From a virus, in the IMG/VR virus record IMGVR_UViG_3300045110_000366, positions 1 through 38,937 of that record: DNA of 38,937 bases, one strand, 5' to 3'. The notes below the pieces were generated by a model, which worked only from the letters and a program-made list of their open reading frames with translations, ran no database searches and was not told where the DNA came from. The first letter of the stretch is position 1, and the number at the start of each line of letters is the position of its first letter. Positions 6,568 to 8,792 of the stretch are shown piece after piece. The translations under genes and the position numbers were made by a program.

Positions 6568-6982
6568 GATAGTCGCACGCATTATCGATATCCGACGCGC
6601 GGAGGTTCGCATCAATCCATCGTGGATTGCCACCGAAGCGTTGAAAGAGATTGACCCGGCCAACCGTTCACATCCGTTGGTTCGGACCGGCTGTCATTTA
6701 CAATTGCGCCAGATTGCTCGCGCACAATGTCGCAAGCTATTCGAGGATGATGACGGCGAAGACGATAGCGAGCCCCTTTTCACCGGTTTTAAGCAATTGC
6801 AATGGCGATATCCGGCGGCCCATTCAAAGGGCAAACCCGAGCCGGAATATGTGCTGCTCGACCAACTGAGCCGCGCTGATGTTGAATACAACGCTCGGCG
6901 GCTTCGTCTCGAAGGGCACGCCAAACTCGAACATGCCGACGCGCTCGAAGCGTGGGACCGTGCGCGACGTGGTGCTGCGTAG
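6539..6982 (+). CDS. Hypothetical early protein, 147 aa
   Basis: Overlaps the previous gene's end, starting at ATG 6539. It has an N-terminal helix (MTKEESQLAEIVARIIDIRR), a His/Cys-containing segment (RSHPLVRTGCHLQLRQIARA), an acidic run (FEDDDGEDDSE) and a C-terminal charged helix. No motif is diagnostic. It belongs to the early rightward operon by position and coupling. Confidence 0.65.
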   Translation: MTKEESQLAEIVARIIDIRRAEVRINPSWIATEALKEIDPANRSHPLVRTGCHLQLRQIARAQCRKLFEDDDGEDDSEPLFTGFKQLQWRYPAAHSKGKPEPEYVLLDQLSRADVEYNARRLRLEGHAKLEHADALEAWDRARRGAA

Positions 6983-6991
6983 GGGCGGCCC

Positions 6992-7267
6992 ATGGTGGAT
7001 GTCTGCCAGGCGTGCGGCCAGCCCATCCGCTTCCTGCGCTGCGGCATCCGGCTGCCGGCGCACAAGGCCGCGATCTTCGACCTGATCAAGCGCGCGGGTG
7101 ACCTCGGCATCTCAAGCGAGGAGATCACGCGCGAGCTCTACGGCGACCGCAGGCCGGTGAGCAAGTACACCATCAAGGCGCACGTCTGGCAGATCAACGA
7201 GCTGCTGGCCGACACCAGCTATTGCATCGTGTCCGACCGGCGCAGTTGGTTTCTGCGAAAAGCATGA
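6992..7267 (+). CDS. Small winged-helix protein with Cys motif, 91 aa
   Basis: Starts MVDVCQACGQPIRFLRCG (CxxC plus a third Cys). This is followed by a winged-helix pattern (HKAAIFDLIKRAGDLGISSE, ELYGDRRPVSKYTIKAHVWQ, INELL) ending in strands CIVSDRRSWFL. The segment resembles the C-terminal DNA-binding domain of OmpR-type regulators. Its stop overlaps the methyltransferase start (ATGA), so it could regulate or assist that gene. Confidence 0.65.
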   Translation: MVDVCQACGQPIRFLRCGIRLPAHKAAIFDLIKRAGDLGISSEEITRELYGDRRPVSKYTIKAHVWQINELLADTSYCIVSDRRSWFLRKA

Positions 7268-8361
7268 AAGTAGCTTATTACAATGAGATTGATAGGTATG
7301 CCGCTCAATGGCTCAGAAACCTTATCGATGCCGGACACATCGCACGAGGCGATGTCGACGAGCGATCAATTGTCGATGTTTCCGCCGACGACCTCGCCGG
7401 ATATTCCCAATGCCACTTCTTTGCCGGCATCGGCGGTTGGTCCTACGCATTGCGCCTCGCCGGATGGCCAGACACGCGACCTGCTTGGACCGGCTCCTGC
7501 CCCTGCCAGCCGTTTAGCGCCGCCGGCAAAGGAGGCGGTGGCAAGGACGAGCGGCACCTATGGCCGCATTGGTTCCGTCTCATCCGCGAGCGAAAGCCTG
7601 CAATCGTCTTTGGCGAGAATGTTGCGGCAGCGGTTGGATGGGGTTGGCTCGACGCTGTTCTCGGCGACCTGGAAGCGGAAGGTTACGCCACGGGGTCGGC
7701 CGTACTGGGAGCACACAGCGTCGGCGCGCCGCATATCCGGCAGCGATTGTGGTTCGTGGCCCACCACGACGGTGGCGGACACTTGGCAACCGTCAACGCA
7801 GGAGAGCATCGACCACGAGGTGGAGAAGCACAACCTGCGGGGCGTCTGCCATCTGGCCTCGTGGCCGACGCCGCAACTAGCGGACGGCGAGCGCGGCTCG
7901 CTCACGATGATGCGCCGCGAGACGAACTACACGTTACTGGGCGCGGCAACGCTGGCCTCGTGGCCGACGCCGACGCAGCAGGAAAGCGCCTCGAGCGGGG
8001 CGGCGGGCTACTCGACGGAGAGCGGGCGGCATTCAGGGACGACGCTGACGGACGCGGCGCGGGCGAGTTGGGCGACTCCAGCCCACCGGGACTGGAAGGA
8101 CACGCCGGGGATGGCGACGACCGGCGTCAACCCGGACGGCAGCGAGCGCACGCGGCAGGACCAGTTGCCGCGGCAGACCCACATGGTTTCTGGGACGACC
8201 TCGTCTGGCTCCCCTGCAGCGACGGAAAAGCGCGGCCAACTCAATCCGGCCTTTTCCCTTTGGCTCATGGGGTATCCGGCAGAGTGGGAAAGCTGCGCGC
8301 CGCAGGCAACGCGATCGTCGCGCAGTGCGCGGCCGAGTTCATAAGGGCGTGCATGCCATGA
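7264..8361 (+). CDS. C5 cytosine DNA methyltransferase
   Basis: 365 residues from the ATG at 7264, coupled to the previous gene. Motif I FAGIGG (53-58) binds AdoMet. Motif IV GSCPCQPFSAAG carries the catalytic Cys81, motif VI is ENV (118-120), motif VIII is IRQRLWFVA (158-166), and motif X is RAAGNAIVAQ near the C-terminus. All core motifs are present and in order. The target-recognition region (about 168-320) is low-complexity, with repeated LVADA units, and looks unlike a folded domain. Phage methyltransferases of this kind protect phage DNA from host restriction; no partner endonuclease of the same specificity is obvious, so it is probably an orphan. A second frame is open through almost the whole gene (see 7283-8344). 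Confidence 0.9.
   Translation: MKVAYYNEIDRYAAQWLRNLIDAGHIARGDVDERSIVDVSADDLAGYSQCHFFAGIGGWSYALRLAGWPDTRPAWTGSCPCQPFSAAGKGGGGKDERHLWPHWFRLIRERKPAIVFGENVAAAVGWGWLDAVLGDLEAEGYATGSAVLGAHSVGAPHIRQRLWFVAHHDGGGHLATVNAGEHRPRGGEAQPAGRLPSGLVADAATSGRRARLAHDDAPRDELHVTGRGNAGLVADADAAGKRLERGGGLLDGERAAFRDDADGRGAGELGDSSPPGLEGHAGDGDDRRQPGRQRAHAAGPVAAADPHGFWDDLVWLPCSDGKARPTQSGLFPLAHGVSGRVGKLRAAGNAIVAQCAAEFIRACMP
7283..8344 (+). other. Long alternative open frame inside the methyltransferase gene
   Basis: A 353-codon frame, shifted one base relative to the methyltransferase, stays open across the gene. It reads as an ordered protein: Ser/Pro-rich N-terminus, then GVGSTLFSATWKRKVTPRGR, four W(P/A)T modules (GSWPTTTVADTW, ASWPTPQLADG, ASWPTPTQQES, ASWATPAHRDW) and an end LNPAFSLWLMGYPAEWESC. 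From memory, stand-alone hypothetical proteins with this kind of sequence are deposited from other phages. High-GC coding often leaves such frames open by chance, so translation is unproven. No ribosome site is evident at the first ATG. Confidence 0.3.
7853..7971 (+). repeat. Direct repeat of 20 bp inside the methyltransferase target region
   Basis: CTGGCCTCGTGGCCGACGCC occurs at 7853-7872 and 7952-7971, 99 bp apart (33 codons). It encodes GLVADA in the methyltransferase frame and LASWPTP in the alternative frame. A diverged relative appears at about 8068 (encoding ASWATP). Confidence 0.8.
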
Positions 8362-8792
8362 GCGGACGGCAATTGCATCTGTTCCGTGCGCGCAACCAGC
8401 GCGGTGTTGCAGCGCCACCGCCGCTGGAATTCGCGACGCAGTGCGCGCTCGCTGACACGCTGCGGAAATGGGCGACGCCAAACTGGGTGTGGACGCACAT
8501 ACCACTCGGCGAAAAGCGCGACGATGTTACCGGCGGACGCCTTAAGCGGATGGGCACGCAGGCCGGCTGGCCGGACTTCATCCTCATTCCGCCGGCGGGG
8601 CCGAAATTTTGGCAGCGACCGCATTTCCTCGAGCTCAAGCGCCGCGGCGGAAAACTCACCACGCCGCAAGCCGGCTTCGCGCTGTGGTGCAAGCTCAACA
8701 ACTGCCCGCACGAGGTCTGCGATACCTACGACGCGGCGGTGAAGATCCTGCAGAGATGGGGTGCGCTGATGCACAGGGTGAAGGTGCAATGA
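8358..8792 (+). CDS. VRR-NUC domain nuclease
   Basis: 144 residues from the ATG at 8358, which overlaps the methyltransferase stop (ATGA). It has the PD-(D/E)XK core of VRR-NUC proteins: PPLEFATQCAL with E24, GTQAGWPDFILI with D73, then FLELKRRGGKLTTPQ with E92, K94 and Q104. Such small phage nucleases are thought to cut branched DNA intermediates. It lies between the methyltransferase and the DUF1376 gene, where several phages carry a replication or recombination nuclease. The frame extends upstream without support. Confidence 0.85.
   Translation: MSGRQLHLFRARNQRGVAAPPPLEFATQCALADTLRKWATPNWVWTHIPLGEKRDDVTGGRLKRMGTQAGWPDFILIPPAGPKFWQRPHFLELKRRGGKLTTPQAGFALWCKLNNCPHEVCDTYDAAVKILQRWGALMHRVKVQ

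Follow-up and report, generated by a model that had tools for sequence, protein, structure and literature searches.

Two overlapping reading frames of a phage C5 DNA methyltransferase (MTase) gene, the MTase frame itself (frame A) and the +1 frame (frame B), have both been kept open among relatives. Selection bears on frame A in the catalytic region, and in the target-recognition (TRD) region it bears on frame B. We consider it likely that the locus encodes an overprinted C5 MTase of two polypeptides, in which frame A provides catalysis and frame B target choice as well as motif IX. Frame B is most likely the TRD/motif IX partner of the MTase that it overlaps, and thereby probably provides the portion of the enzyme that chooses the target. 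The features of the locus are listed in Table 1.

Table 1. Features of the overlapping frames A and B. Positions refer to the window, i.e. the whole stretch of 38,937 bases that was analysed.
Feature	Position	Strand	Basis
Frame A: C5 MTase large subunit (alpha-like), 365 aa	7264..8361	+	PF00145, phrog_363, AF2 model
Frame B: overprinted +1 ORF, proposed beta-like subunit	7283..8344	+	open in relatives, TRD selection, phrog_1008
Candidate start ATG of frame B	7376..7378	+	frame B ATG in 69% of 199 related loci at this position
Motif I FFAGIGG, frame A residue 52, after motif II/III-like segment	7417..7437	+	sequence, alignment
Motif IV PCQPFS with catalytic Cys, frame A	7501..7518	+	invariant alignment columns
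Frame B residues 101-150, confident helix and beta hairpin	7583..7732	+	AF2, pLDDT 71-89 by blocks
Motif VIII APHIRQR, frame A	7726..7746	+	sequence
Frame B W(P/A)T(P/T) modules 1-4, starts 7757, 7862, 7961, 8069	7757..8182	+	sequence, module clusters
Frame A residues 172-303, low-complexity, pLDDT <50, without folded TRD	7777..8172	+	AF2 model
Motif-IX-like GQLNPAFSLWLMGYPAEW, frame B	8234..8287	+	motif IX matrix, sequence
Motif X KLRAAGNAIVAQCAAEFI, frame A, directly after frame B motif IX	8290..8343	+	motif matrix, model

The window is a virus record with phage head, portal, terminase, and tail genes. Frame A starts with the ATG at 7264 and ends with TGA (8359-8361), a TTG at 7222 being a longer alternative start, and the gene has a GC content of 65%. 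Frame B has no stop between 7274 and 8341 and is terminated by TAA (8342-8344); the second frame of 353 codons within the MTase gene that an earlier note had reported is obtained when counting from the ATG at 7283. The repeated W(P/A)TP modules described in that note are present as four W(P/A)T(P/T) copies at frame B residues 159, 194, 227, and 263, and LNPAFSLWLMGYPAEWESC, given there as the end of the frame, is located near the C-terminus with 15 further residues to the stop. In the TRD region, two LVADA repeats of frame A coincide exactly with two WPTP modules of frame B at the DNA level. A promoter scan from 6900 to 8500 gave nothing above chance, and a Pfam scan of the two ORFs on each side of the MTase gene detected no restriction enzyme. 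The next gene (8358-8792) begins with an ATG at 8358 overlapping the frame A stop as ATGA, and its product is VRR_NUC-like at a sub-threshold score (17.3 bits vs. 23.8).

In the window gene alone, the openness of frame B is only moderately surprising: When frame A was synonymously recoded using the codon usage of 13 window ORFs, frame B was open in 0.8% of 20,000 draws, and in 0 of 10,000 when the synonymous codons of frame A itself were permuted. A tblastn search with frame B yielded 194 phage records, and most of the 60 matches listed have an MTase annotated there. From IMG/VR, 80 loci were found via frame B and another 80 via frame A; in nearly all of them, frames A and B are both open over their full length and the third frame is broken. 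Across 168 IMG/VR and named phage loci, frame B was open over a median of 91% of frame A compared with 45.5% in own-codon shuffles, which are conservative because the codon choice of frame A already reflects frame B. At the level of single loci, at least one of 300 shuffles was as open as observed in 105 of these 168, and more than 15 shuffles were in 21.

Stops in frame B were then counted by segment in 120 loci with both motif patterns, taken from 150 unique length-filtered frame A genes (167 with duplicates), and compared with synonymous shuffles. In the first 20 codons of frame A (171 observed, 161.9 expected), in codons 20-40 (67 vs. 75.9), and in the last 12 codons (109 vs. 106.1) the counts were close to expectation, while 4 stops against 122.7 were found from codon 40 to motif VIII, none against 146.0 in the TRD region, and 21 against 59.4 in the C region. 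The third frame had about the expected number of stops in the core segments, with lower counts in codons 0-20 (82/124.1) and higher counts in the C region (197/121.1). When bacterial genomes were scanned with frame A alone (64 of 80 loci usable), the TRD region contained 0 B stops with 65.6 expected and the segment from codon 40 to motif VIII 3 with 72.2 expected, and both ends were at expectation. As controls, 284 further long ORFs of these loci had 3343 stops in the +1 frame compared with 3465.0 expected, and only one of them was open over 85%. The segment counts and controls together indicate that frame B is a coding unit which starts about 20-40 codons into frame A and ends near its end. 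Stops of the +1 frame in close relatives, which had been named beforehand as evidence against overprinting, are thus almost lacking in the core of the overlap, in favor of overprinting.

Since position 3 of a frame A codon is position 2 in frame B, and position 1 in frame A is position 3 in frame B, substitution rates distinguish between the frames. For 60 disjoint pairs, the rates at frame A positions 1, 2, and 3 were 0.105, 0.069, and 0.212 in the catalytic region, with position 3 above position 1 in 58 pairs and below it in none. In the TRD region, the rates in 60 disjoint pairs were 0.244, 0.154, and 0.142, with position 1 above position 3 in 49 pairs and below it in 9. The catalytic region therefore evolves as frame A codons and the TRD region as frame B codons. 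Two further sets of pairs showed the same for the TRD region (position 1 above position 3 in 39/39 and 42/42 pairs) and for the catalytic region (position 3 above position 1 in 38/39 and 39/42 pairs). The codon-level check of synonymous variation proposed in the earlier note was thereby carried out, and in the TRD region the third position of the MTase codons turned out to be the slowest-changing one, not the fastest. Its suggestion that the low-complexity LVADA stretch of the MTase target region reflects constraint from the other frame also holds, as substitutions in this region follow frame B. In the catalytic region, changes synonymous in frame A created 2 stops in frame B with 30.3 expected, and with stops excluded such changes were still more conservative in frame B by +0.19 BLOSUM (95% interval 0.13-0.25; n = 1043, 67 pairs). 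Due to this avoidance of stops and of non-conservative exchanges, the N-terminal half of frame B can be regarded as constrained too, though frame A dominates there. The long same-strand overlap is a clear natural case of dual coding, with selection measurable in both frames and a dominant frame that switches sharply at the border between catalytic and TRD region.

A start of frame B at 7283 is doubtful. The ATG at 7376 appears at the position conserved in relatives, and 7352 may also be used. At the main B start, the overlapping frame A codons of relatives read NAT-G in 134 cases and NAC-G in 14, compared with 316 NAT-G and 738 NAC-G in the remainder of these genes (p 4e-47). A Shine-Dalgarno-like 4-mer precedes 85 of these 134 B-start ATGs. 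In the window, no clear Shine-Dalgarno or ribosome site was found ahead of 7376, 7352, or 7283.

The frame A protein has the properties of a catalytic chain. It matches PF00145 (2e-18; 67.4 bits vs. a cut-off of 22; residues 90-183 of the longer frame A call) and, over its length, phrog_363 of PHROGs ('DNA methyltransferase'; 1e-83). The catalytic PCQ of C5 MTases is present as PCQPFS (7501-7518), and we take FFAGIGG, PCQPFS, and APHIRQR to be motifs I, IV, and VIII. In the AF2 model, pLDDT exceeds 90 over most of residues 1-168 and the motif X helix is also confident; comparison of the model with M.HhaI gave a Z score of 15.9 with 188 residues aligned and a match reaching motif X. FFAGIGG follows YNE.D and VDERSI segments (window 7264-7518), and this order together with an HhaI alignment starting at residue 34 suggests that motif I is shifted behind motifs II/III relative to HhaI. 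Normal C5 MTases require a TRD and motif IX. Frame A is not a complete single chain with both of these between motifs VIII and X, and a motif IX matrix built from 8 ordinary MTases scored 3.0 on frame A, i.e. at the level of shuffled sequences (3.1). For motif X, the best matrix window was at GNA(I/V) in 35 of 56 frame A proteins, and motif X is absent from frame B.

Frame B has no match in Pfam and NCBIfam and none with Padloc, its profile has no match among PDB sequences, and the B proteins of 71 relatives gave a single weak Pfam match (E 0.035). In PHROGs it matches phrog_1008 ('DNA methyltransferase'; 5e-27). Its AF2 model has a mean pLDDT of 58 and a pTM of 0.28 and is confident only in the helix-hairpin of residues 101-150 and in short helices close to the C-terminus. 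A fold search with this model (VIA) gave no TRD-fold match, the best Z of 3.0 being to unrelated proteins; C5 MTase small domains were absent from the VIA list, which does not exclude them. The spacing of GQLNPAFSLWLMGYPAEW equals the motif IX spacing L-x-P-5x-LMG of ordinary MTases (e.g. L266). With the motif IX matrix, 34 of 61 B proteins had their best window on the LNP..LMG motif, and the median score was 7.0 compared with 2.8 in shuffles; the window's own B scored 8.6 and thereby under the 99th percentile of shuffles (12.1), above which 7 of the 61 were found. The signal for a putative motif IX in frame B is hence weak per sequence but consistent in its place. With the B motif IX ending at 8287 and the A motif X beginning at 8290, the motifs retain their ordinary order but are divided between two frames. 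From 210 loci, 464 B modules were obtained and grouped into 239 clusters, the common ones occurring in several slots. As only 4 of 155 near-identical module pairs were in loci with divergent N regions, 3 of them involving a truncated contig, the data show modules at different slot positions but not recent transfer at the nucleotide level.

A second family with the same arrangement was found by searching phrog_27243 in 398 Pseudomonadota genomes, of which 15 had a match. This gave a divergent MTase whose motifs stand in canonical order (L316), unlike those of frame A in the window, and whose +1 protein begins with MTWLY. Using 80 close relatives, 78 of 83 loci entered the analysis and provided 39 pairs. 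In the TRD region, rates at frame A positions 1, 2, and 3 were 0.181, 0.039, and 0.042, with position 1 above position 3 in 39/39 pairs. Amino acid identity in this region was 0.935 for B and 0.798 for A, and the reverse applied to the catalytic region (0.852 for B, 0.938 for A). There were 0 B stops in every segment, but since only 6.1 were expected in the TRD region, more weight lies on the substitution pattern here. In this family, the sequence ATGCATG occurs at 62 of 62 unique starts found, its second ATG, 4 nt past the frame A ATG, being the start of frame B. In most examples printed (L334-L413, L316, L318, L331), the double start is located close behind a TGA.

Low-GC sets were built starting from Bacteroides and Paenibacillus phages; of 125 loci, 106 could be used (79 and 83 loci for counting once duplicates and loci with missing motifs were removed). 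From motif IV to VIII, 0 B stops were found with 148.8 expected (79 loci), and from motif VIII to X 26 with 168.6 expected (83 loci). These low-GC sets are the source of the 42/42 pairs with position 1 above position 3 in the TRD region. Both frames are open in the Salmonella phage epsilon15, the Escherichia phages ev129, Delraymugoa (42% GC), K1G, and N15, Vibrio phage Vaitephage (47% GC), Lacticaseibacillus phage R9.1 (45% GC), Synechococcus phage Yong-M2-251, Paenibacillus phage Shelly (44% GC), Mycobacterium phage Bubbles123, and Bacteroides phage BS-TP4 (43% GC). The GC content of the overlap ranges from 38% to about 70%, a virus locus at 38% (L528) also having both frames, and the arrangement is not confined to high-GC DNA.

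A motif filter flagged 19 loci as having no frame A, and 8 of these were inspected. Five (L426, L452, L481, L528, L541) have a frame A with a variant motif, and in L477 no long overlapping pair was seen in the stretch inspected. In L511 (1311-2078) and L530 (1209-2243), indels appear to have joined the catalytic part of A in one frame with B modules and motif IX; these may be decayed genes, or natural fusions that lack motif X. In L022, L026, L011-L013, and L016, frame A exceeds 500 codons and extends far beyond the end of B, which suggests a C-terminal fusion. A stand-alone or in-frame fused B was discarded as a candidate, since every intact case inspected was overprinted; a fused family of actinobacterial MTases with in-frame PTP repeats was not confirmed among these loci.

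A two-chain enzyme is the simplest explanation, because frame A is without TRD and motif IX and the other frame has both constraint and motif IX. Frame A would provide the catalytic large domain with motifs I-VIII and X and a disordered linker in place of the TRD. Frame B, with a start of its own some 30-40 codons into A, would provide a partner consisting of the N-terminal helix-hairpin, the W(P/A)TP array, taken as the target-recognition part, and motif IX. Once made, B would bind A to form one enzyme in which B sets the target specificity, and a swap of modules would change the methylated site. It is unlikely, in our view, that B is a real overprinted protein of unrelated function (e.g. anti-defence) located over the MTase linker by chance. 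B has indeed no Pfam, NCBIfam, PDB, or confident fold match, and its position and motif IX are its sole links to the MTase; however, A is without a folded TRD exactly where B bears constraint, motif IX is missing in A according to the matrix and present in B just ahead of the A motif X, and the pairing recurs across divergent MTase families, with no intact B apart from an MTase in the loci inspected.

The collinear order of motif VIII (A), modules and motif IX (B), and motif X (A), with only the step from 8287 to 8290 between the latter two, would also fit programmed frameshifting, by which the catalytic part of A, the TRD and motif IX of B, and motif X of A are joined in one chain. This would require two frameshifts, and frame B is open and its changes are conservative far upstream of motif VIII; moreover, ATG starts are selected at the B border, as with the invariant ATGCATG of the second family, so that we regard frameshifting as very improbable. 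The earlier note had left the choice between true overprinting and a database artefact. An open +1 frame as by-product of GC-rich codon usage, with similar database proteins as annotation artefacts, could appeal to the 65% GC of the gene and the 0.8% of draws with open B under window codon usage, but the stop depletion has sharp borders, is absent in the 284 control ORFs, and persists at 38-50% GC, and substitutions follow frame B. Codon shuffles, control genes, low-GC relatives, and substitution patterns thus rule out the high-GC artefact, to which we assign a practically negligible probability, while stop depletion and the TRD substitution pattern support overprinting.

Beyond the single locus, we give slightly better than even credence to the joint reading that there is a large class of dual-coded phage C5 MTases in which B is a WPTP specificity array with modules in varying order, target specificity can shift when modules are exchanged, A need only remain open there as a linker, and a TRD placed in the large chain is misplaced. 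Within this reading, and held with the same slight preference, the hosts would comprise at least Pseudomonadota, Bacillota, Actinomycetota, Bacteroidota, and Cyanobacteria.

The closest known system is M.EcoHK31I, a two-polypeptide C5 MTase with the site YGGCCR. Its smaller gene was reportedly placed by Lee et al. in 1995 within the larger one, in another frame; frame B is nested here in the same way. As described in PMC3404938, M.EcoHK31I and M.AquI are known exceptions to the single-chain C5 MTases. The larger polypeptide of M.EcoHK31I carries motifs I-VIII and X and the smaller one motif IX, and by this description the division resembles that of frames A and B (PMC3404938). The predicted TRD of M.EcoHK31I is in its larger subunit according to the same account, whereas here selection puts the TRD in B (PMC3404938). 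Further differences are that M.EcoHK31I is part of a restriction-modification pair, whereas no restriction enzyme was found here in two genes on each side, and that B, with 353 aa or somewhat fewer, differs from the small chain of M.EcoHK31I by its length and its variable module array. M.AquI is likewise described as a C5 MTase distributed over two chains, the second of which contributes motif IX and sequence of the distal target region (PMC3404938). Its motif X is given as part of the small subunit, whereas here motif X is in A and not in B (PMC3404938), and here the genes overlap almost completely. Compared with M.EcoHK31I, the principle appears to be the same; what seems new is the wider spread, the modular B, and the evidence on the location of the TRD.

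Frames A and B match phrog_363 and phrog_1008, respectively, and PHROGs does not state that both are two frames of one gene. The nested ORF has already been annotated as 'g55 internal gene' in Paenibacillus phage Shelly and as 'Mte8-like protein' in E. coli phage K1G, and double DNA methyltransferase calls in Xanthomonas phages PhiXhv-18/28 correspond to the same nested ORF; these records give a label alone, without function or evidence. The deposited record of Pseudomonas phage Riah (1467-2372) has no forward-strand gene annotation at the MTase/B locus. Another gene located out-of-frame inside a phage methylase is the HNH endonuclease of the ShiLan domain (PMC11855218); as described there, it is an inserted homing endonuclease, whereas the second frame here overlaps the enzyme core and carries parts of the enzyme. 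No paper describing the overprinted phage MTase family was found in the open-licence literature, most subscription journals being outside this scope.

If B sets the specificity, many phage cytosine MTases annotated as complete would represent half an enzyme, and a recoded frame A cloned alone would yield a dead or non-specific protein. The locus also allows a direct test of whether exchange of modules in one frame, tolerated by the other, can be a way for specificity to evolve.
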